From a bacterium (GTDB lineage: Bacteria; CSSED10-310; JAJRTK01), in assembly GCA_024278345.1 (NCBI GenBank), contig JAJRTK010000343.1, forward strand, positions 1 to 12,198: a stretch of 12,198 nucleotides of DNA. The letters run 5' to 3'. The notes under the pieces are model-generated. The model saw nothing but the letters and a program-made list of their open reading frames with translations. It had not been told where the DNA came from and searched no databases. Made by a program: the position numbers and the translations under genes. Of the stretch, positions 733 to 11,993 are shown piece by piece. Within the stretch, counting starts at the first letter, position 1, and each line of letters begins with the position of its first letter.

Positions 733-1827
733 TCATGGCGCTTCCAAGGCAGGGGGCCCTTCGTTGGCCTGGCTGGCGACGATCCGAAGGAGATCTGGAT
801 CGCGCATAAGTTCCAGCAGTGGATTCTCTGACGACATGACAAAGCTCGTGCGCGTCGTAAAAGATTTTTCGTAGAGCTCCAGTATTTTTAGAAACCGGAA
901 GAAGCGAGGACTTGAGCTAAAAGCCGCAGCCTTGATGGTGATGGCCTTCGCCACCGCCTCGCCCCGGAGCTCACGCACCCGGCGGTCCTGTTCTCCCACA
1001 ATGGCGCCGAGGCGCTGCTCCTTAACCTGTTGGATGGTGCCGGCGCACGCGTCGCCGAGCTTGTTGTAACGGGCAATGTCCCGCCCCCGATCCTTGGTGA
1101 TCTTGCTCGTGATCTCTTCATGCACCTGGTAAGCATAATTGAGGTATTTGAAGTGTAGATCCAAGAGCTTGATCCCGAACTGTTGTTGCAACACTTCGTT
1201 GGACGTCTCCAAGATGCTTTTCACGATTTCGGAGCGTAGCGCCTTGGACTCCTCCGTGCCGGTGGCGCCGATCAACTGTTTAGCGATTTTGTCGTACTCA
1301 TCCAGCATCTTGGCGATCTCTTTGTTGGCCCGTGGCTGACACTCGGGGTAATCGACGAACAGAAACTTGAGGTCGGAGGCTGCTCGAGCCGCGAAGCTGC
1401 GCCCCTTGTCCCGAACGATGGTGGCCAACCGGTGCTCGCGAACCGCCGCCTGGATGCGCTTGGTGACCACGGAGTCCATGCTCCGGTGAGCTTGGGTGTC
1501 GGTGCCTACGGCCGTATAGAATCGCGTAGGCCCACCGGGAACCGGATCGATTTGCCAGCGGGCGAAGGCAGTAAAATCAATGGGTTTGAGCTCGGACGTG
1601 TTGGTATTGCGAGAGATGCTCTCCCAGCCTCGGACCCTGCTGTCGAGATAGCGGGGGTCTTGCAGGAAAGGCACCAAGAAATAGAGGCCTGGCTCCCGGC
1701 TTTCGTCGATAGGGTCACCGAACTGAGTGAGCACCACGACCTGGTCTGGTCGCACTGTGTAGAACGAGGCCCAGCCGGAGACGAAAATCACCAGGACAAG
1801 CACTATGATTACGATTCGACTTATCAT
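733..1827 (-). CDS. hflC: HflC, SPFH/prohibitin-type membrane protease modulator
   Basis: HflC and HflK form a large inner-membrane complex that surrounds and modulates the FtsH protease (family knowledge). The 364-residue product has one N-terminal membrane anchor (about residues 3-21) with the bulk on the periplasmic side. An SPFH domain follows, opening with the typical 'V..DQ..V.TQFG.P......PGLYF..PF.Q' pattern at about 28-56. After it come a helical stretch (about 225-295) and the usual HflC end: FFRFLKILELYEKSF followed by a segment resembling the family's '.....S....F.L'. The length is slightly above the usual ~300-340. The ATG overlaps the hflK stop (ATGA), with GGAGG at 1834-1838 as a ribosome binding site, so the two are translationally coupled. 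The coiled-coil portion has fewer Glu/Ala repeats than most HflC. The identification is firm. Confidence 0.93.
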   Translation of the reverse strand: MISRIVIIVLVLVIFVSGWASFYTVRPDQVVVLTQFGDPIDESREPGLYFLVPFLQDPRYLDSRVRGWESISRNTNTSELKPIDFTAFARWQIDPVPGGPTRFYTAVGTDTQAHRSMDSVVTKRIQAAVREHRLATIVRDKGRSFAARAASDLKFLFVDYPECQPRANKEIAKMLDEYDKIAKQLIGATGTEESKALRSEIVKSILETSNEVLQQQFGIKLLDLHFKYLNYAYQVHEEITSKITKDRGRDIARYNKLGDACAGTIQQVKEQRLGAIVGEQDRRVRELRGEAVAKAITIKAAAFSSSPRFFRFLKILELYEKSFTTRTSFVMSSENPLLELMRDPDLLRIVASQANEGPPALEAP

Positions 1828-3473
1828 GGTGAACCTCCGGATCCCAAGCTGACAAAGTCCTTGAGGGGCAGGTGCTTATAGATGCCGCTCCCCTTCTCGT
1901 CTTCGATAATCAGTTTCTCGTCGAGCTTCTGCAGCACGGTAGTCATGGTTTTGAGATACATCCATTGGCGCGTGATTTCAGGTGCCCGCTCGTACTCCAC
2001 CGCCTTTGCCAGGAACGAGGAGGCTTCACCTTCCGCGTTCTCGATGACTTTGAATCGATCATTTTCCGCCTGGCCAATGGTCTCATTCTTGAGCCTTCGA
2101 GCCCGGCCAATGGCGTTGTCCTGTTCGGCTTTTGCATCGGCCAGCTCACCCTGGACCTTGGCCAGGGTCCGGGTCAGGTCGTCGAATGCTTCTCGAGCAG
2201 CCTCGGGCACGGCGGCGTTCTTGATGGCCACCTCGGTGATGATCACGCCGGTGGGGACCTTGTCACGTAGAGCTGCTTGGGTAGTTTCGTGGGCCAGTGT
2301 TGCGATCTCGAGTTGTTTGGTCGTCAGCACCTCGTCCAGAGAGTAGTCACCGACGATCTGGCGCATGACCGCCATGGAGATATCGCGGATCGTGGACTCC
2401 CGGCCCTTGATTTTGAACAGCCAAGCGTGGAGATCCTCGATCTTGTAGACCAGTGACCAGCGCACGTGGACCAGCATCAGGTCGCCAGTGAGCATCAGTG
2501 ATTCGTAGGCTTGATACCTCTTGGAGAGCTCCGAATCGGTGCGGAACCCGAACTCCAGCCTCTGCTGCCTGTGGACTGGAGCCCTATAGACTTGGTCAAT
2601 GATGGGAATCTTGGCGTGGAGGCCAGCCGGAAAGGTCTTCTGCAGAGGCTTGCCAAGCCGAAGAACGATCGCCTCTTCCTCCGGCTCAAGCTGAAAAAAT
2701 ATCTGGGTTACGGTGAACAACATGGCCACCGCGATGAGCCCGACCAACAGGGGAATTCGGTTTTGGTTCAGCATCTCCAGCAACGATTCGAGGTCTTCGG
2801 GAAACTTAGAGTTTGGCATTTTGCCCATGCTCCATTCGTTGCGGGCCAACAGCTTCTCCTTTGGGTGCGTTTTGCCTTCCGGATCCTGAGCCAGGGATTT
2901 GTCCGACAGGTGTTGGTTTGTCGGTTCTTCATCCGCCATCTCTCCAGCGCGAGGGCCGGTGGCCCGTTTCTTCCGTTCATTGGCCAGTGCGAGGATTTGA
3001 TATAACAACTCCTCATAATCAGACAGTTCGCTGAGGAGATGCTCCACGTCCTCTTGTTGCTCATCAGCGAGCTCTTCTTTCGACAACACATCGAGGCGGC
3101 GCCTTGTTTTTGCAACCTCTTCGAGTGCCTCGAAGTGATGCTGGATCACTTCCTCCGTGGCCGCGTCGTCAAAGACGTCGGATCCATCGGGTGGGTCGAG
3201 CAGCTCTTGGCACTGCTTTCGCGCTGCCTCAAGCTGCCTCTCCACCGTGGAAGCGATTTTGGGTAACGGTTTGGTGGACGGAGAAAGATTGGGTTGCGGT
3301 TGTGGATTTTGCGTCTGCGGTCGTGGACGCTTCCCTCGCTTCGTGCGTTTTGGGCTCAAGTGTCGCGTCCTCCGTTCAACGAGCTCTGCCAACCGAACAG
3401 GGCCAGCGTGCGGGTCGATGCAAATCTGAAGCTCTGCCGATCCAGATGTTGGGCCACGATCATACAGAGCCAA
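1824..3473 (-). CDS. hflK: HflK, SPFH/prohibitin-type protein with ~178-residue N-terminal extension
   Basis: Partner of HflC in the FtsH-modulating complex. Counting from the TTG at 3471-3473, the single membrane helix is at about residues 238-260. The SPFH domain then starts with 'EEEAIVLRLGKPLQKTFPAG' and contains the HflK signature ESLMLTGD near 324. A long charged helix (about 430-490) ends the protein. From Met179 (ATG at 2937-2939) onward the protein has a normal HflK length of 371 residues. The 178 residues before it are open in the same frame: a basic, Pro/Gln-rich stretch (about 40-70), then an acidic, probably helical region (about 75-170) that I cannot assign. An in-frame TGA lies just upstream of the TTG. 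Neither start has a convincing Shine-Dalgarno (GGAG is only 2 bases from Met179), so the true 5' end is uncertain. The stop overlaps the hflC start. The HflK core is certain; the extension is less so. Confidence 0.88.
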   Translation of the reverse strand: MALYDRGPTSGSAELQICIDPHAGPVRLAELVERRTRHLSPKRTKRGKRPRPQTQNPQPQPNLSPSTKPLPKIASTVERQLEAARKQCQELLDPPDGSDVFDDAATEEVIQHHFEALEEVAKTRRRLDVLSKEELADEQQEDVEHLLSELSDYEELLYQILALANERKKRATGPRAGEMADEEPTNQHLSDKSLAQDPEGKTHPKEKLLARNEWSMGKMPNSKFPEDLESLLEMLNQNRIPLLVGLIAVAMLFTVTQIFFQLEPEEEAIVLRLGKPLQKTFPAGLHAKIPIIDQVYRAPVHRQQRLEFGFRTDSELSKRYQAYESLMLTGDLMLVHVRWSLVYKIEDLHAWLFKIKGRESTIRDISMAVMRQIVGDYSLDEVLTTKQLEIATLAHETTQAALRDKVPTGVIITEVAIKNAAVPEAAREAFDDLTRTLAKVQGELADAKAEQDNAIGRARRLKNETIGQAENDRFKVIENAEGEASSFLAKAVEYERAPEITRQWMYLKTMTTVLQKLDEKLIIEDEKGSGIYKHLPLKDFVSLGSGGSP

Positions 3474-3528: not shown

Positions 3529-4206
3529 TTAGGCGCCTGACATCTTGTTGAGAAGGGCTCGGCAGCTCATGGTGGGATCGCTTCCCTTGAAGACAGCCGA
3601 GCCGGCGACGACAATATCGACGCCTTCCCGGACGACGAGATCCACGTTTTTTTCGTTCAGACCGCCGTCCATTTGGATCAGGGTTGGCAGCCCCTGAGCC
3701 CCAATGCAATTTCGGAGCTTCTTGAGTTTTGGCAGGATCTCTGGAATGAAGCTCTGCCCTCCAAAACCGGGATTGACGGACATGAGTAGAACAAGATCCG
3801 CGAAGGGAAGTGCGTCGTCAAGAAGACCGAGCGGGGAGAATGGGTTCAATGCGATGCCCGCCGTAATAGGGCGGCCAAGCTTCTTTCCCTGTTCGCGGAT
3901 GAGCGACAAGGTTCGGTGAAGGTGGCGACAGACCTCTGCATGGACGGTGATGTGATTCGCGCCCGCGTCGGCGAAGGCCGGGATGTAGTCATCGGGGTCC
4001 TCGATCATCAAATGGACGTCGAGCTTGAGTCGGCAGCGGGGGCGAACTGCCCGCACAATGAGCGGGCCGATGGTGATGTTGGGAACAAAATGACCGTCCA
4101 TCACGTCTAGATGGAGCCAAGTTGCCCCGCCTTTTACAATGGCGGATACCTGCTCTCCAAGACACCAAAAATCCGCCGACAGTATCGAGGGCGCAAGGGC
4201 TACCAT
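3529..4206 (-). CDS. rpe: Ribulose-phosphate 3-epimerase
   Basis: Interconverts D-ribulose 5-phosphate and D-xylulose 5-phosphate in the pentose phosphate/Calvin pathways; cytoplasmic TIM barrel. The family landmarks are present in order: APSILSADF at the N terminus, HLDVMDGHFVPN (metal-binding His and catalytic Asp), DVHLM (second metal His), NPGFGGQ (phosphate loop) and MDGG (second catalytic Asp), then AGSAVFKG. The length of 225 residues is normal. I chose ATG 4204-4206 over the GTG at 4210-4212 because GGAGGAG lies about 7 bases before the ATG but only one base before the GTG. Two bases separate it from the preceding PASTA gene. A 55-bp gap precedes the TTG of the hflK frame. Confidence 0.96.
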   Translation of the reverse strand: MVALAPSILSADFWCLGEQVSAIVKGGATWLHLDVMDGHFVPNITIGPLIVRAVRPRCRLKLDVHLMIEDPDDYIPAFADAGANHITVHAEVCRHLHRTLSLIREQGKKLGRPITAGIALNPFSPLGLLDDALPFADLVLLMSVNPGFGGQSFIPEILPKLKKLRNCIGAQGLPTLIQMDGGLNEKNVDLVVREGVDIVVAGSAVFKGSDPTMSCRALLNKMSGA

Positions 4207-4208
4207 GG

Positions 4209-5276
4209 TCACTCTCCTCCGGACGCCGGCGGGAAAGCCGGAGTCGGGTCAGAACTTGGCGAAGGCGCCTCCGTCGGGGCGGCACCCAGGGTCAGAAGGA
4301 CTCGCTGCCCGTCCAGCAACTGAGCCTGCGTGCCTCCGGGAATCTCAGGCAACGGCGCGAAACAGCTCGCGCCGGCTTCGCAGCGAACGGGTTGCTCCAG
4401 GGTTTTCCCAGACAGTCCGACGATCCGGAGGACCGGCCGCTGGACTCCTTGGGGAAGTTGGTACTTTACCACGCGATACAAAACAAGATCGGGCCCCTTT
4501 CCCACGATGAGCTTGAGACCGGTCCCACTCAAGGGATGCCCGGCGGGGGGGACCTGCTCGATGATTTTTCCCCGATTGTCCAGGCTACCTTTCCGGTACT
4601 CGATTGCGCTGATCCGGCCCAGCTCCCAACCCCATTTTTCCATCACCCGATCCTGATCCCGCCCCACGAGATCAGGAGTCACGTAGAGAAGAGGGGGCGG
4701 AGGCTTCGACAGGATGACCTCGATGAAACGGGTGGGAATCAAAGTCCCGGGAGGCGGTTCTTGAGCAAGAATCCGTGGGGGTCCGGTGCTCTGAACCTGG
4801 AGCACGGAGCCCAGTTGGAACGTCGTTGGGCGCAACTTGTTCCGCGCTTCTTCCAGGGGCAGCCCCAGGAGGTCCGGAACTCTACTTTCGGCCGGATCGC
4901 GCTCCAGGACAAGAACCACGGCGGAACCTTTCCAAACGCCAGTGCCTGCCCGTGGGATTGTGTGAGAAACCTCCAGATCCGGTGGCAACGAGGAAATCTC
5001 CGCGCCCGCCACCTCGGGCCGAAGCCGGGCTTTCGTCAGGGTCTCCAGGGCGGCGGCCAATTCCTGGTGGGCGACGTTCGGGATTTGCGCCACCAGGGCT
5101 CCGTGGAGCGAGATCAGGCCGTAGGCCGCCATGGAACCAAGGAGAAGGACCGGGAGAAAGCAGCCGCGGATTCCGGGAAACAGGGAGAGTCTCCTCCGCG
5201 AGCCCATTCCAGGCCACACGGTAGAACCCGGCGGGTCGGCAGGAAACAGGGAAAGACTCTCTTTCGGGCTACTCAT
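4209..5276 (-). CDS. Membrane-anchored protein with three PASTA domains, no kinase domain
   Basis: 355 residues. A short N-terminal segment of about 35 residues is followed by one membrane helix (about 36-57) and then an extracytoplasmic part with three PASTA repeats. These are at about 62-126 (IPNVAHQELAAALETL...IPRAGTGVWKGS), 131-191 (VPDLLGLPLEEARNKL...QEPPPGTLIPT) and 199-260 (PDLVGRD...EQVPPAGHPLSGTG). A beta-rich tail with two cysteines (299 and 305) and a Pro/Ser-rich end follow. PASTA domains bind peptidoglycan fragments or beta-lactams in PknB/PrkC-type kinases and PBPs (family knowledge). Here there is no room for a kinase before the membrane helix, so the protein may be a cell-wall sensor or scaffold. 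The ATG overlaps the end of rsmB by 8 bases. Free-standing PASTA proteins in this rsmB-rpe position are, from memory, seen in other Gram-negative lineages, but the function is unknown. Confidence 0.85.
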   Translation of the reverse strand: MSSPKESLSLFPADPPGSTVWPGMGSRRRLSLFPGIRGCFLPVLLLGSMAAYGLISLHGALVAQIPNVAHQELAAALETLTKARLRPEVAGAEISSLPPDLEVSHTIPRAGTGVWKGSAVVLVLERDPAESRVPDLLGLPLEEARNKLRPTTFQLGSVLQVQSTGPPRILAQEPPPGTLIPTRFIEVILSKPPPPLLYVTPDLVGRDQDRVMEKWGWELGRISAIEYRKGSLDNRGKIIEQVPPAGHPLSGTGLKLIVGKGPDLVLYRVVKYQLPQGVQRPVLRIVGLSGKTLEQPVRCEAGASCFAPLPEIPGGTQAQLLDGQRVLLTLGAAPTEAPSPSSDPTPAFPPASGGE

Positions 5277-6831
5277 GGGCTACCCGGGTCAGTGCGGTGA
5301 TGTAGTAACCGTCTTCTCCGCCCGGTCCCCCGAATGATGCCCAGCCCGTGGGGGTTCGAGTCAGATCGATTCGGTCTTCGGTGGAGCGATGGCTTCGGGG
5401 CGGCACCCTGTCTGGAGGGGACTGAAGGGCGACTGGCGCGCAGCGGACGTGAGCGCCGGGAGCGGAAGCCAACCCAGAGAGAAAAGACGGGTCTTGATCC
5501 CTTGCATTCCTGGTGTTTGATGCAGCCCAGTTCCGGGCGCCGGGAAGCTCGGCCACGGTCCACGGGGAGCTGGCGGTGAAATCGGTGATGACGGAGTCAG
5601 TTTCCTCTTTTTCGAAGCTACACACGGAGTAGAGGAGCACCCCTTCCGGTCGGACCCAGCGGGTGGCCTGGTGGAGAAGAGCGAGTTGGATCTCGGCCAT
5701 TCTTGCGGGATCCTCCGGCTTCCTTCTCCAACGGATTTCCGGGTGACGGCGGATCGTGCCAAGGGAGGTGCATGGGGCATCCACGAGGACCATCGAGCAT
5801 TGGGCCTCCAGTGTCTCAAGGGATTCAATGCTTTCGGGAATCTCGATCGGGTCCAGGCCAAGATTCCGGAGGTTGCCCCGAAGGCGGTGGCGGCGCTTTT
5901 GGTTCCGGTCCCAGGCGATGATACGGCGGGTTTTGCCCAGGCATTGGGAGAGGACGATGCTTTTCCCCCCCGGGGCGGCGCAGAGATCGAGAATCGCTTG
6001 TTTTCCTCTCTTTTCCGGTTCCCGGGACCAGGCCGGGATCGCGGAGGCAGCGAGCTCACCCATCAGTTGGGACATTCGGCTTTGGACGTAGAAGCCCTGG
6101 TGGTATTTTAGGGCCGCGAGGAGATCCGAGGCCCGTGTGAGTTGAATTCCCGCCAATCCCGTGAGTGGGATAGCAGAAAGTTTCTTGGAATGCAGCCAGT
6201 GGAGGGCTTCGGCCACGCTCCAACGGTCCAGGTTGACCCGGAGGTCGATAGGGGGTTCCCGGTTGTTACCGATGCACCAGCGCCGCGTCTGTTCCAGGCC
6301 CATTCGTTCGATCCAACGCTCCACCAACCAGACGGAATGGGAAGTCTCAAAACTGATTTTCTCGGCTTCGCTCTTGCAGCGTCCCATCGCCAGCGCCGAT
6401 AGTTCTTCCCAGCGCCGCGAGAGGTTTCGGAGGATCCCGTTGACGAAGTTGGCTATCCCTTTGTGACTCACCCGCCGGGCCAGGCGAACCGATTCGTTCA
6501 CCGCTGCGTGTGCGGGAATGCGGCTGTGGCAGGAAAGCTGGAATGCCCCGAGCCGCAGGAGATTCAAGACCCGGGGGCGTAGAGATTCCAGGGGGCGCTG
6601 GCTCAGCATGCGGAGCAGCTCATCCAGATGGAGCCGATGGCGGAGAGTTCCCAACACCAGATGGCGTAGAAGCCCCACTTCGTGGGCTTGATGGCAAGCT
6701 TCCAGATCAAGGCTCCGAAGCCCCAGTAGCTCGCTCATGGGATGGCGTGGATCATCCGCCAAGCAGAGCAGATCCAGGGCGAGGCGCCTTACGTTCAACG
6801 GTTTCATCGCGTTATGCGAGTCCGGGGCCAT
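5269..6831 (-). CDS. rsmB: 16S rRNA (cytosine-967-C5)-methyltransferase
   Basis: SAM-dependent m5C methyltransferase of 16S rRNA. The product has 520 residues. The N-terminal NusB-like RNA-binding helical domain covers about 10-150 (AAVNESVRLARR...FVNGILRNL is typical). The catalytic domain carries motif I LDLCAAPGGKS (281-291), motif IV DAPCTSLG (351-358, Cys354) and motif VI YSVCS (401-405, Cys404 as the likely nucleophile). The C terminus EDGYYITALTR matches the usual 'GTDGFFIA.L.'. The region between about 430 and 505 is longer than in E. coli RsmB, and the usual VQD..SQL motif reads VQSRMSQL. The start is uncertain: ATG 6829-6831 overlaps the upstream gene by 20 bases, whereas ATG 6805-6807 sits 4 bases after its stop and directly before the conserved NVRRLALDLL. 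Neither has a clear Shine-Dalgarno. The stop overlaps the PASTA gene. Confidence 0.94.
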   Translation of the reverse strand: MAPDSHNAMKPLNVRRLALDLLCLADDPRHPMSELLGLRSLDLEACHQAHEVGLLRHLVLGTLRHRLHLDELLRMLSQRPLESLRPRVLNLLRLGAFQLSCHSRIPAHAAVNESVRLARRVSHKGIANFVNGILRNLSRRWEELSALAMGRCKSEAEKISFETSHSVWLVERWIERMGLEQTRRWCIGNNREPPIDLRVNLDRWSVAEALHWLHSKKLSAIPLTGLAGIQLTRASDLLAALKYHQGFYVQSRMSQLMGELAASAIPAWSREPEKRGKQAILDLCAAPGGKSIVLSQCLGKTRRIIAWDRNQKRRHRLRGNLRNLGLDPIEIPESIESLETLEAQCSMVLVDAPCTSLGTIRRHPEIRWRRKPEDPARMAEIQLALLHQATRWVRPEGVLLYSVCSFEKEETDSVITDFTASSPWTVAELPGARNWAASNTRNARDQDPSFLSGLASAPGAHVRCAPVALQSPPDRVPPRSHRSTEDRIDLTRTPTGWASFGGPGGEDGYYITALTRVAHE

Positions 6832-8449
6832 ACTGGAGAATCAGCATCGTTACGTCATCGTGTTGGCTGGCACCACGGGAAAAATCGTCGATGGCCTGTT
6901 CCAGGGCGTCTTGGATTTCTGGAGCTGATCGGTGGAAGTTCTGGCCGACGACTTCGATGATCCGGCCGAGCCCGAACTCCTCGCCAGCGCTGTTGCGGCT
7001 TTCGCTCACTCCGTCGGTAAAGAGGAGCAGCGTGTCCCCCGCGGCAAGCTGAATCGTCTCCGATTCATACTCCAAGCCGGGAAATGCTCCCAGAAGCAGG
7101 CCTCCCCGCTCAAGCCTTCTGTGAGTGCCATCTCGCGAAAAGAGGAAGGGGGGATCGTGGCCCGCGTTGGTATAGGTGAGTAGGCCATCGGAAGTGAGGG
7201 TCCCGTAAAAGAGGGTCACGAACTTTTCCGCCGCCGACTTCTTGTGAAGGTAATTGTTGACCCTGGCAACCGTCTTGTTCACTGGGCCCGCGAATTCCGC
7301 TTGGGCAGAGAAAATGCCGTCCACGAGGCACATGAGAAGCGCCGCCGGGATTCCCTTGCCGCTCACATCTCCCACGACGAATCCGAACAGCCCCTCTTCC
7401 ATGGGGTAATAGTTGTAGTAGTCGCCTCCGACACTCCGAGACGGCCGGCTGACGGCGGCCACCGACAGGTAAGGCGTGCTGGGCGGATTGACGGGAAGGA
7501 GCCGCTCTTGGATGATCCGAGCCACGTTGAGCTCTTCTTCCATCCGCTTTTTTTCCAGCTCTTCCTCGTGAAGACGTGCGTTTTCAATGGCGATGGCGGC
7601 GTGAGACGCAAGGGACTCCAAGAGCCGAAGCCCCTTCTTGGTGAAGTCCTGGGACTGCGTCTTGTTATCGACGTAGATGATCCCTAGAAGGCGAGGCTCC
7701 TCGGCCTCGTGGCCGAAATAGGACACGATGAGTGGCACGCACATGATGGTCTTCAGCTCCAGAGCCAAAATGCTCTGCTGGTTCCGAAAACGCTCATTGT
7801 CATCGACGTTCACAAGGATTTCCGGCTCCCCTGTCTCCACCACTCGCTCGACGACGCTCCGGGAGATGGCGTGGGCTTCCGTTGCAAGCGGCTCGCCATT
7901 GAAGTTTCGGGCCACGGAGAAGTTCAGATCTCCCTTATCGCTTCGGAGCATCAGAAAACCCCGCTCCGCGCCCGTGACCCGAAGAACCGCGTCCATGACC
8001 ATACTGAGGACGTCTCCCAACACAAGAGAGGAGCTCAGGGCCTTGGTGACCTCCAAAAGGAGCATCAAAGCCTGGTAATCCTCCTTCGTCGTGTCCCGCA
8101 AGTCGCCGAGGCGGAGGTTGACCGAGTCTTCCTGCGATCCCTCCAAATAGAGGAGCCGGTAGGCATGATTCCTCCCCAAAGTCATGAGATCACCATCCCG
8201 GAGACGGTGATCGGTGACGCGGCGGCCATTGACGAAGGTCCCCTCCTTGGAGCCTAGATCCCGCAGCCGCCAGTTTCCGTCTTGCAGGATGACTTCCGCG
8301 TGGTATCTGGAAATGTGCGGGTCACTGACCTGGACATCGTTGTCGGAACGCCTCCCGATGGTCAACGTCCGGTTTTCCAGTTGGAAAGTCGTTTCTTCAC
8401 CGTGGCTTTGCACCACCTTGATTCGAGGGCGCTTGAGGGCGTTCGGCAT
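6812..8449 (-). CDS. FHA-GAF-PPM (SpoIIE/RsbU-type) serine/threonine phosphatase
   Basis: 545 residues, soluble, with no membrane segment. The FHA domain at about 10-100 has the phosphothreonine-pocket residues GR (32-33), S47-x-x-H50 and TFVNG (71-75). A GAF sensor domain covers about 135-290, and a charged coiled-coil linker (about 292-318, ending in RIIQERLLP) leads to the PPM phosphatase domain at about 325-540. Metal-binding Asp residues are visible in VGGDYY (Asp343), GDVSGKG (Asp361), FTDG (Asp479) and HDDVT (Asp531/532). Such proteins read phosphorylated partners and dephosphorylate Ser/Thr targets, often anti-sigma-factor antagonists (family knowledge). No STAS or anti-sigma gene is in the window, so the target is unknown. 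ATG 8447-8449 is preceded by AAGGAAGG about 4 bases upstream. It is the first gene of the minus-strand block. Confidence 0.93.
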   Translation of the reverse strand: MPNALKRPRIKVVQSHGEETTFQLENRTLTIGRRSDNDVQVSDPHISRYHAEVILQDGNWRLRDLGSKEGTFVNGRRVTDHRLRDGDLMTLGRNHAYRLLYLEGSQEDSVNLRLGDLRDTTKEDYQALMLLLEVTKALSSSLVLGDVLSMVMDAVLRVTGAERGFLMLRSDKGDLNFSVARNFNGEPLATEAHAISRSVVERVVETGEPEILVNVDDNERFRNQQSILALELKTIMCVPLIVSYFGHEAEEPRLLGIIYVDNKTQSQDFTKKGLRLLESLASHAAIAIENARLHEEELEKKRMEEELNVARIIQERLLPVNPPSTPYLSVAAVSRPSRSVGGDYYNYYPMEEGLFGFVVGDVSGKGIPAALLMCLVDGIFSAQAEFAGPVNKTVARVNNYLHKKSAAEKFVTLFYGTLTSDGLLTYTNAGHDPPFLFSRDGTHRRLERGGLLLGAFPGLEYESETIQLAAGDTLLLFTDGVSESRNSAGEEFGLGRIIEVVGQNFHRSAPEIQDALEQAIDDFSRGASQHDDVTMLILQYGPGLA

Positions 8450-8545: not shown

Positions 8546-8568
8546 GAAAAAAAACGAGTCAACGCTCT
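8546..8568 (-). terminator. Weak terminator-like T-tract at the GH172 gene stop
   Basis: Read on the minus strand, the stop codon of the lipoprotein gene lies in GAGCGTTGACTC, directly followed by G and a run of eight T. The stem is at best 3-4 pairs (GAG/CTC), so it is not a strong intrinsic terminator. The T-run may still weaken read-through into the promoter and phosphatase gene downstream. Confidence 0.2.
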
Positions 8569-10160
8569 AGGTAGTAGAAGCTCACCGCCCGGAACTGGTC
8601 CCGACGGCCCAGCAGGTTGCCATTTTCCTGTTGTACTACCAGTTGAGCGGCGAAAGGAATGGCATCGGAAACGAAAAAGCGGTACGCTTCCAGGTCGGGC
8701 TGGAATGGGTCCTGGACCGACGTGACACCGGTGAGGGCAGCGCTGCCGATGCCGCCTTCGAAGCGCCAGTGAGCGTTGAACAGATCGGCGATTCCCGTAC
8801 CCCCATGGGTCTCCACGCCATCAATGTTGAAGAACTCGTCTCCTTCCAGGCCATAGGGTTTGCTGAAGGAATCCAGGACCAGGTGGAGTCCCACAAAATG
8901 GCCCCGACCGGGCACCTCCAACACGGAAAACCGGCGCTTGGCATCCACGATAGCGGAGTTGAAGGTCCCGTACAGATAAAGGGCGTCGTCTCGGACAGGC
9001 TCGGCATCATAGTAGATTTCGCAGGTAACATTGTGGGATCGACCACCGTTGACAAGCTCCACTCGGGCAGAAGCCCGGAAGGGCATGGGCAAAGCCAGGT
9101 AGAGAGTCCCATCGGCCAGGCTGCCCTGGTGGAGGCTCTGGAAGTCACCTCGCCGGTAAAAGCTCCCAAAACCCGTTCCCAAGGGAACCTCCACCGACGG
9201 CTGAGCCTCTCCATCCCAGGAGATGCGAAGATCAATACTCTCCAGATCAGCAGACGTCACCAGGGGGGCATAAATCCGCAAACCCCGAATCCTACCGGGT
9301 CCTTGAAGCTCCCCCAGCAGGTTCGTCCCCCGTTCCAGGGGACCGTCGAAGGCCACTCGTTGGGCGGCGAGCTCCATCCGGTTGGCGAATTGCAAAGGAG
9401 TTCGCCAGTCCGACAAGATCTCTTCCAAAGCACCTGCATCGGCCTCGCTCAGACCAAGAGACCCGTCCGCCCGGCGTATCGGAGACGGTTCCACGATCTG
9501 GCCACTCAGGTCCAGAAGATTGATCTGGTAAAGAAAACGGTTCGCCGGAGCCGGCGCGTTCGGCGGCGCCGGATTCGTCACCGTCACCTTCACGGAGGAG
9601 GCAAACGAGATGGGCACATAGCAGTAGAATCCCCGGCCATTGACGCCGTCGGGGTTCTTGTGGCGGTTGACCAGAGGATGCAGGAACGGCGATGTTCCAC
9701 CGGCAAAAAACAGGTTCAAGGGAAGGGAAAAAAGCAACCTCCCATCAGTTTCGACATTCAGAATGGCTCGCGGGTCAAACCCGGGAACCGTCGTTTCACC
9801 CGATTGAACGCGGCTTGTCATCCAGATCCGAGTGATCACTCCCGGCCCGTTGTGCCGGGCAAGAAGATAAGTATTGCCCCCTTCGTCTCCCAAGTAGTGG
9901 TTGTAGTCCTCGTTGGAAGCCGGCTCGGGATCACGAGAAGAAAAGAGCTGGCTGACGCCCAATCTGGGAGAATCCAGGTGGGCGGCGCCACCAAGGAGTA
10001 AATAACCTACGGACGACGACAACGAGGCCCCGAAGGGCGTAGGCGTCGGTTCTGGACCCGGGGAAGGATCTTCCCTGGCCGAACCACATCCACTCAGCAG
10101 AATGGACGCGAAGGCGAGTTTTAGGAAAAGGGGGCTTGCTCCGTGGGATCTGCCATCCAC
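8559..10160 (-). CDS. DUF2961 (GH172-like) lipoprotein
   Basis: DUF2961 proteins include glycoside hydrolase family 172, which acts on fructofuranosyl or arabinofuranosyl linkages (family knowledge). From the GTG at 10158-10160 the product has 533 residues. A signal peptide ends in lipobox LSGC (Cys25), then a Pro-rich linker follows. The fold's two jelly-roll halves show their usual marks: NEDYNHYLGDEGG and GPGVITRIW early; GFYCYVPISF; later GPGRIRGL, VEVPLGTGFGSF and LPMPFRASARVELVNGG; then GRGHFVGL and GLEGDEFFNIDG. The family motif usually read as HGTGTEDYF is here HGGTGIADLF, lacking the Glu, so it may be inactive or altered in specificity. A longer GTG start (10206-10208) exists. I prefer 10160 because GGGAG (10168-10172) lies about 7 bases upstream and the signal peptide is then of normal length. 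The substrate is unknown. Confidence 0.82.
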   Translation of the reverse strand: MDGRSHGASPLFLKLAFASILLSGCGSAREDPSPGPEPTPTPFGASLSSSVGYLLLGGAAHLDSPRLGVSQLFSSRDPEPASNEDYNHYLGDEGGNTYLLARHNGPGVITRIWMTSRVQSGETTVPGFDPRAILNVETDGRLLFSLPLNLFFAGGTSPFLHPLVNRHKNPDGVNGRGFYCYVPISFASSVKVTVTNPAPPNAPAPANRFLYQINLLDLSGQIVEPSPIRRADGSLGLSEADAGALEEILSDWRTPLQFANRMELAAQRVAFDGPLERGTNLLGELQGPGRIRGLRIYAPLVTSADLESIDLRISWDGEAQPSVEVPLGTGFGSFYRRGDFQSLHQGSLADGTLYLALPMPFRASARVELVNGGRSHNVTCEIYYDAEPVRDDALYLYGTFNSAIVDAKRRFSVLEVPGRGHFVGLHLVLDSFSKPYGLEGDEFFNIDGVETHGGTGIADLFNAHWRFEGGIGSAALTGVTSVQDPFQPDLEAYRFFVSDAIPFAAQLVVQQENGNLLGRRDQFRAVSFYYLER

Positions 10161-10208
10161 CAGTCTTCTCCCGGGTCGAGGAAATCCGTTCTTGCCACTG
10201 GACCTCAC

Positions 10209-10382: not shown

Positions 10383-11993
10383 ATGCCATCCTTCACTTCA
10401 TTCTTGTCTCGGGCCGGTTTTCACGGTGTCCGCCCCTCTTTTCCCCTGGTGCCTCGCTCCAGGTTCTTAGGAGTTATCATCCTTGGCGGTCTCGCCTTTG
10501 TCAGTAGAGCCGCCGACGCTTCAGCCTCTCCTCTCACCCTGTACTTCAGCGATCCCATCGGCCAGACTGGGCCTCGTGACGACTGCTCCGCCCCCATCTG
10601 CCAGGCCCTCTTGCGGCGAATCCAGGCCGCCCATCAATCCATCGACTTCGCCATCTACGGCCTCCGCAACCAGTCGGCCATCCTCCGGGCCCTCGTGAAG
10701 GCGCAGGCCCGGGGAGTGCGGGTCCGAGGGATCGTGGATCAAGATATCCATGGCCAGAGCTACTACAGCTCGACTCCTCAGCTCATGAAGGCCCTCGGCA
10801 CGGTCCGATCAGACTACTCCCACGACATCCGGGAAGCCCGAAACCGCCGACCGTATGTTGGTGGTCGTGGCCGCTGCCCCCGTCCGGCCGGGTTCCTCGG
10901 TCCCCTCCAATGCCTTTCTTACGACATCGGAGACGCCTGTCTCCAGGTCGCCCATGCCAGCCGCGAGCCCATCGACTACAAGGGCGATCTCATGCACGAC
11001 AAGTTCTTTGTCTTCGACGGGCGGAGCGTTTGGACCGGCTCCGCCAACGTCAGTGACTCGGGGACCGGGGGCTACAACGCGAACCTGGTGGCTCTTTTGG
11101 ACTCGGCCCAGGTCGCCCGGTGGTACACCGAAGAATTCGAGCAGATGTGGAGCGAAGGTCGGTTCCATCGCTTCAAGTCCAGGCATGGCAAGATGTTCGC
11201 GAAGCTCTCCGATGGCACCGACGTTCGAGTCTACTTCTCCCCCAAAAGCCGTACAATTCCGCGGGCGGTTCGTCCTCTGATCCAGGGCGCTCGGCGCTCC
11301 ATCGACATCGCGGTATTCTTTCTTACCCACAAGGATATCACCCGCGACTTGATCCATGCCCACCAGCGCGGAGTCCGTGTGCGAGTCATCCTTGACGCCA
11401 CCGCGGCCAAGAACGGGTACACAAAACACGAGATCCTTCGAGCTGCCGGGATCCCTGTCAAAATCGAAAACTGGGGCGGCAAGATGCACGCAAAAAGCGC
11501 CGTTATCGACGGAAATATCGTGATTGCCGGGTCCATGAACTGGACCAGCGCCGGCACGGGGACCAACGACGAGAACACCCTTCTCATCGAGAGTCGAGTT
11601 TATGCCGCCCAGTACCAGAGATGGTTTGACCGCTTATGGGACTCCATTCCCCTCCGGTGGCTAACCCACCGGCCCGACCCCGAATCCCGGGACTCCGGCT
11701 TTTCATGCACCGATGGCGTGGACAACGATTTCGACGACCTGGCCGACAATTCCGACCCCGGTTGTAGTCCCACTCCGCCACTTCTGCCCGCTCTTCCTCC
11801 CCAGAAGATAGTTCCCAAGTCCGAGGCCATGCGCCTCATCAAGGCCGTGGTCACCCGTGGCGGCCTCAAGCTCTATTATCTTCCGGGGACCAGGCAGTAC
11901 AGCTCTGTGAAGATTGATCCCACTCGCGGCGGCCGCCTGTTTTGCAGTGTGAAGGATGCCAAAGTGGCGGGCTGGACTCAAGCTGGTCACTGA
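10383..11993 (+). CDS. Secreted phospholipase D-like protein (two HKD motifs) with C-terminal sunset-like domain
   Basis: 536 residues. An N-terminal export signal has its hydrophobic core at about 28-42 and a plausible cleavage after ADASA. Two PLD half-domains each carry an HKD motif: HDKFFVFDG (His205, Lys207, Asp212) followed by GSANVS, and HAKSAVIDG (His369, Lys371, Asp376) followed by GSMNWTS. This pair forms one active site in PLD-family phosphodiesterases and nucleases. Residues 442-461 form a Cys-bounded, Asp-rich motif (C-DGxDND...D..DPGC) like calcium-binding repeats in myxobacterial surface proteins. After a Pro-rich linker the last ~45 residues (YYLPG..QY, KIDPT.GGR.FCS..DA..AGW) resemble the small sunset domain found at the end of some secreted nucleases. 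ATG 10383 has AAAAGGTGA just upstream. The substrate (phospholipid or nucleic acid) cannot be read from the sequence. Confidence 0.88.
   Translation: MPSFTSFLSRAGFHGVRPSFPLVPRSRFLGVIILGGLAFVSRAADASASPLTLYFSDPIGQTGPRDDCSAPICQALLRRIQAAHQSIDFAIYGLRNQSAILRALVKAQARGVRVRGIVDQDIHGQSYYSSTPQLMKALGTVRSDYSHDIREARNRRPYVGGRGRCPRPAGFLGPLQCLSYDIGDACLQVAHASREPIDYKGDLMHDKFFVFDGRSVWTGSANVSDSGTGGYNANLVALLDSAQVARWYTEEFEQMWSEGRFHRFKSRHGKMFAKLSDGTDVRVYFSPKSRTIPRAVRPLIQGARRSIDIAVFFLTHKDITRDLIHAHQRGVRVRVILDATAAKNGYTKHEILRAAGIPVKIENWGGKMHAKSAVIDGNIVIAGSMNWTSAGTGTNDENTLLIESRVYAAQYQRWFDRLWDSIPLRWLTHRPDPESRDSGFSCTDGVDNDFDDLADNSDPGCSPTPPLLPALPPQKIVPKSEAMRLIKAVVTRGGLKLYYLPGTRQYSSVKIDPTRGGRLFCSVKDAKVAGWTQAGH

Follow-up and report, generated by a model that had tools for sequence, protein, structure and literature searches.

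A kinase-less PrkC-type PASTA protein encoded in the slot between rsmB and rpe

The PASTA protein studied here is best explained as a kinase-less homologue of the PrkC ectodomain that occupies a conserved gene slot and has a function independent of a kinase, a reading to which we assign a probability of about 0.72. Its gene lies between rsmB and rpe, as prkC does in Firmicutes, in a window of 12,198 nucleotides. The window is the complete contig C273 of a genome of 6.06 Mb whose completeness is 88%. The identification of the protein as a PrkC/Stk1-type ectodomain (three PASTA domains plus an Ig-like domain) on a membrane anchor is well supported.

Gene layout and surroundings

On the minus strand the order of transcription is FHA-GAF-SpoIIE phosphatase, rsmB, PASTA gene, rpe, hflK and hflC (Table 1). 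The first four genes overlap, by 4 nt between rpe and the PASTA gene (rsgA/cpgA is absent there), by 8 nt between the PASTA gene and rsmB, and by up to 20 nt between rsmB and the phosphatase gene; the last overlap disappears when the second methionine of RsmB is taken as the start. Coordinates and Pfam matches together confirm the original prediction of an overlapping four-gene block with a PASTA protein devoid of a kinase. A kinase hidden by a frame error upstream of the PASTA gene is ruled out, as rsmB directly adjoins the gene on that side and leaves no space for a kinase domain.

Several other features surround the block. The hflK and hflC genes are on the same strand as rpe, and HflK carries an N-terminal extension of ~230 residues ahead of its SPFH domain; hflK, which lies downstream of rpe, possibly belongs to the same transcription unit. 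Upstream of the block a DUF2961 protein is encoded (8559-10208) and, on the other strand, a two-domain PLD-like protein with the calcium-repeat-like tail DGVDNDFDDLADNSDPGC (10383-11993). Near the window start there are two copies (35-56 and 245-266) of a dispersed repeat with the palindrome CGTTGCNNTTNNTTGCAACGGG. This repeat has 116 exact copies in the genome (reversed control: 0), and several other contigs also have copies near an end.

Table 1. Coordinates of genes and protein domains in the window, with the supporting evidence
Feature	Position	Strand	Evidence and remarks
hflC	733-1827	-	TIGR01932 130.9 bits (cut-off 134.4); Band_7
hflK	1824-3473	-	TIGR01933, score over its cut-off
rpe, ribulose-phosphate 3-epimerase	3529-4212	-	Pfam Ribul_P_3_epim 6e-74; downstream partner of conserved pair
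Kinase-less PASTA protein, 355 aa	4209-5276	-	Pfam PASTA 1.8e-19, no kinase family
Ig-like domain, residues about 263-336	4269-4490	-	3py9 alignment; counterpart of PrkC ectodomain domain 4
PASTA domain 3 (weaker), residues about 193-260	4497-4700	-	PF03793 16.3 bits at 4500-4679; aligns to StkP PASTA 4
PASTA domain 2, residues about 128-192	4701-4895	-	PF03793 at 4704-4883; structure
PASTA domain 1, residues about 62-127	4896-5093	-	PF03793 at 4905-5087; structure
Predicted transmembrane helix, residues 34-61	5094-5177	-	AlphaFold2 secondary structure; hydrophobic stretch aligned across relatives
rsmB, 16S rRNA m5C methyltransferase	5269-6831	-	Pfam RsmB/NusB; upstream partner
FHA-GAF-SpoIIE phosphatase	6812-8449	-	Pfam SpoIIE (PF07228) 2.3e-45, FHA 4e-22, GAF

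Identity of the ectodomain and conservation of its slot

About 35 residues had been predicted to precede the membrane helix of the PASTA protein, which agrees with a predicted helix beginning at residue 34. A methionine at residue 24 would leave ~10 residues, as in relatives, so that the cytoplasmic tail comprises only about 10-34 residues. Behind this single helix the protein has tandem extracytoplasmic PASTA domains, and its C-terminus forms a beta-sandwich in the AlphaFold2 model (mean pLDDT 79). Searches with Pfam and NCBIfam gave no match to PF00069 or any other kinase family in the protein. Against the NCBIfam PASTA-kinase model NF033483 it scores 49.7 bits (cut-off 450), covering positions 345-552 only, which are the ectodomain part; a Paenibacillus PrkC passes with 642.6 bits.

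Profile and structure comparisons point to the ectodomains of PASTA kinases. We built a profile (A2, 318 positions) from 18 kinase-less PASTA proteins, and in the PDB it matched PASTA-kinase chains, among them the PrkC ectodomain of S. aureus (3PY9, E 1.9e-44, positions 39-316) and PknB of M. tuberculosis (2kui, E 8e-46). The best Foldseek match of the window model is likewise 3py9 (E 4e-15), which VIA-align places on residues 64-335 with a Z of 9.7 and an rmsd of 17, the latter attributed to hinging between domains. PrkC has an Ig-like fourth domain (PMC3601408), and HHalign relates the Ig-like C-termini of 45 kinase-less proteins to those of 22 kinases with a probability of 97.8% and to those of pseudokinases with 99.1%. 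The window protein itself is divergent (best identity 28%, with a long branch in the ectodomain tree), and its PASTA ligand may therefore differ.

With Firmicutes PrkC/Stk1 (3PY9; NF033483) the protein shares the ectodomain of three PASTA domains and an Ig-like domain, the one transmembrane helix and the rsmB-rpe slot; unlike PrkC/Stk1 it has no kinase or juxtamembrane domain, and rlmN, prpC and rsgA are missing nearby. The M. tuberculosis PknB also has a repeated PASTA ectodomain, but with four PASTA domains and a kinase.

A comparison of 80 named rsmB loci gives fmt-rsmB-rlmN-prpC-prkC-rsgA-rpe as the typical order in Firmicutes. Among the same loci, rsmB-PASTA-rpe without a kinase is found in Hydrogenedentota (L093), Zixibacteria (L096), Tectomicrobia (L098) and Neomarinimicrobiota (L119, L120), and the PASTA gene of Acidobacteriaceae lies near rsmB but on the opposite strand. 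The predicted resemblance to the Firmicutes cluster thus holds for rsmB-PASTA-rpe, which is homologous by ectodomain, Ig-like domain and position, and the slot recurs without a kinase in several phyla.

The A2 profile detected a PASTA protein in 119 of 193 genomes, which almost all belong to different families; most of the frames are 220-370 aa long. Of 80 PASTA loci, 77 are without a kinase domain, two have degenerate kinases and one has an intact kinase; these loci were picked by similarity to kinase-less proteins, and 77/80 is not an unbiased frequency. The suggestion that the genome oddly lacks its kinase is not supported, since the kinase-less protein is the common form in this sample. 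For 78 of the loci, those below the kinase threshold (L190, a degenerate kinase, is counted among them), the gene that follows downstream, within 200 nt and on the same strand, is rpe in 55, and rsmB or fmt is directly upstream in 41 (rsmB alone in 29); 33 are flanked on both sides in this way. Recurrence in 55/78 loci from diverse bacterial families shows that the PASTA-rpe adjacency is not due to chance. One locus (L200) contains two kinase-less PASTA genes in tandem (4664-5509 and 5513-6250) between rsmB and rpe.

Within the phylum of the window, exactly one PASTA protein is present in seven of eight genomes (the eighth is 60% complete) and never in a kinase-length frame. Four phylum sisters (L043, L050, L053 and L058) have the order def-fmt-PASTA-rpe-purH-purD, and in five of the eight genomes rsmB has no match at the threshold used.

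Degenerate kinases in the slot and the question of a partner kinase

In two other candidate phyla the slot holds a degenerate kinase. The phylum of G126 has kinase-TM-PASTA-Ig proteins of 674-697 aa (L208, at 4610-6679, L229, L230 and L231), which precede rpe in all four loci and lie between rsmB and rpe in three; here HRD is replaced by HGQ or HGL, and DFG by DFF, DFY or DFQ. In the phylum of G116 similar pseudokinase-PASTA proteins are encoded after fmt (L190 with HNC/DCG, L232 with HGF/EDY), and a third member (L233) has a short PASTA frame only, adjoining fmt and rpe. All intact Firmicutes PrkC of the sample keep both HRD and DFG. The six pseudokinase proteins resemble the window protein in TM-PASTA-Ig anatomy and in their slot before rpe or after fmt; they differ by a degenerate kinase domain that is kept, with the HRD Asp lost. 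Even with filters off, the kinase-less proteins of the sample gave no kinase signal except for the degenerate L190.

Such pseudokinase-PASTA proteins are what one would expect midway through the loss of a kinase, and their motifs indicate that the kinase probably decayed in at least these two phyla. In the ectodomain tree the forms with a kinase, a pseudokinase or neither are intermingled, with labels grouped far better than chance, but the tree is unrooted and weakly supported and gives no direction of change; the direction therefore rests on the pseudokinases and not on the tree. The reverse course, with a kinase-less PASTA protein as the ancestral form and a kinase gained by fusion at this locus in Firmicutes, would fit the kinase-less forms in many phyla and the restriction of intact slot kinases to Firmicutes among the sampled loci. 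We regard it as rather unlikely, given that the pseudokinases imply a kinase once fused in the slot outside Firmicutes and that the tree, though without firm support, intermingles the forms.

Kinases are encoded elsewhere in the window genome, one of the possibilities that had been suggested. The search returned 129 PF00069 match rows, which come from 112 candidate places in the 6-Mb genome, a very large Hanks kinase complement, though none of these kinases carries PASTA. A PASTA kinase elsewhere was not found in the 88%-complete assembly, where the other PASTA match is weak and spans 24 residues. A partner kinase may be present in this genome, and it might be argued that the PASTA protein senses wall fragments and acts in trans with a soluble or membrane Hanks kinase, the neighbouring FHA-PPM phosphatase reversing the reaction. 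The size of the kinase complement, the many FHA and SpoIIE proteins and possible co-transcription of the four overlapping genes would suit such a division of labour. Still, it seems improbable: the phosphatase is not conserved at this position, the Asn of SxNGT is missing from its FHA domain, and the short tail of the PASTA protein leaves little for cytoplasmic signalling. As a general role it is further opposed by the 8 of 36 PASTA-carrying genomes in which PF00069 finds nothing at E 1e-6, among them the near-complete single-contig genomes G148 and G043, which excludes, within detection limits, a general need for a Hanks kinase.

The phosphatase upstream of rsmB does not adjoin the PASTA gene. 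By its Pfam match it is a SpoIIE/RsbU-type PPM with the metal-binding Asp motifs in place: GDYY, GDVSGKG, FTDGVSE and DDVT look intact, and the Asp motifs align with Rv1364c, which together with a Pseudomonas response regulator is its closest solved chain. RsbU/SpoIIE phosphatases (Rv1364c, Pseudomonas RssB, SiaA) share this type of catalytic domain, whereas the window protein has FHA-GAF input domains. A PrpC-like identity was rejected, as predicted: PF07228 (SpoIIE) is matched instead, and comparison with the PrpC profile gives 7 bits, no homology at useful significance. The FHA domain keeps GR, SRxH and VNG, but SxNGT reads SKEGT, and with this Asn missing phosphothreonine binding is uncertain.

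No FHA-PPM phosphatase adjoins rsmB in any of the 80 named rsmB loci or in either of the two phylum relatives that have rsmB, and none adjoins the PASTA gene in the 80 PASTA loci; the best homologue in the phylum (41%, G001:C107) is away from rsmB, which lies on another contig (C168). The phosphatase thus drops out of the proposed match to the Firmicutes cluster, by the very refuting condition that was set out with that proposal. It looks like a lineage-specific neighbour, a local addition outside the conserved cluster, and coincidence best accounts for its resemblance to PrpC. That it is functionally part of the block, as a convergent substitute for PrpC, is quite improbable given these neighbourhoods and the many SpoIIE/FHA paralogues in the genome, even though the genes overlap on one strand and the metal-site motifs look intact; a local functional link with the PASTA protein through co-transcription may exist.

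It is most improbable that the PASTA gene is a passenger of little function, kept by its position between essential housekeeping genes: this would suit its high sequence divergence and the rsmB-rpe pairs without PASTA in Geomonas and Nitrospirota (among the 80 named rsmB loci), yet over very large divergence the frames stay open and the TM-PASTA anatomy is constant, in most cases including the Ig-like domain, and in 15 of the 78 sampled loci the gene is kept away from rsmB, fmt and rpe.

A proposed wall-binding role without phosphorylation

According to the preferred reading, a kinase-less PrkC-ectodomain homologue with a kinase-independent function, the protein is encoded in the ancestral prkC slot with the kinase absent, and would be a bitopic inner-membrane protein. 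Its periplasmic PASTA and Ig-like domains would bind uncross-linked peptidoglycan or muropeptides, and in this way it may hold or space proteins of wall synthesis or division, with no signalling by phosphorylation. The FHA-GAF-SpoIIE phosphatase would be a regulator in its own right, placed in the same transcription unit here by coincidence. We know of no kinase-less member with an established ligand, partner or phenotype. We propose a membrane-anchored, periplasmic peptidoglycan-binding scaffold or spacer, with roughly even odds for this specific role, because muropeptides or lipid II are ligands of the PASTA domains in PrkC and PknB (PMC3601408, PMC6428115) and because the external PASTA domain of PknB, expressed alone, alters mycobacterial growth and beta-lactam sensitivity (PMC4632501).

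PASTA-only proteins are already known to databases. The kinase-less PASTA locus, its spread and the pseudokinase intermediates are undescribed in the open-access literature searched, although absence there is no proof of novelty. PASTA kinases have usually been presented as a Gram-positive hallmark whose ectodomain serves kinase switching (PMC1262709, PMC3601408). A review of pseudokinases names PASTA in its reference list only (PMC12599244); the MviN and EssB/YukC proteins that it covers are likewise non-catalytic derivatives of kinase-linked membrane proteins, MviN being tied to wall synthesis, but unlike the window protein they keep the kinase fold.

The outer half of the kinase probably has a job of its own, since the slot holds the ectodomain alone in this bacterium and in many unrelated groups, and a decayed kinase in two. 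We tentatively extend this to the family as a whole, an extension that we hold possible rather than probable: the PrkC ectodomain of the rsmB-rpe slot may be an ancient and widespread wall factor, present in diderms and other bacteria, that never depended on phosphorylation for its core function, and in several lineages the kinase would have become a pseudokinase and then been deleted, with the wall-binding half kept. The ectodomain alone is common in the prkC slot of other phyla, also in genomes without a detectable Hanks kinase, and a role of PASTA domains without a kinase is thus directly testable in species where no kinase confuses the answer.
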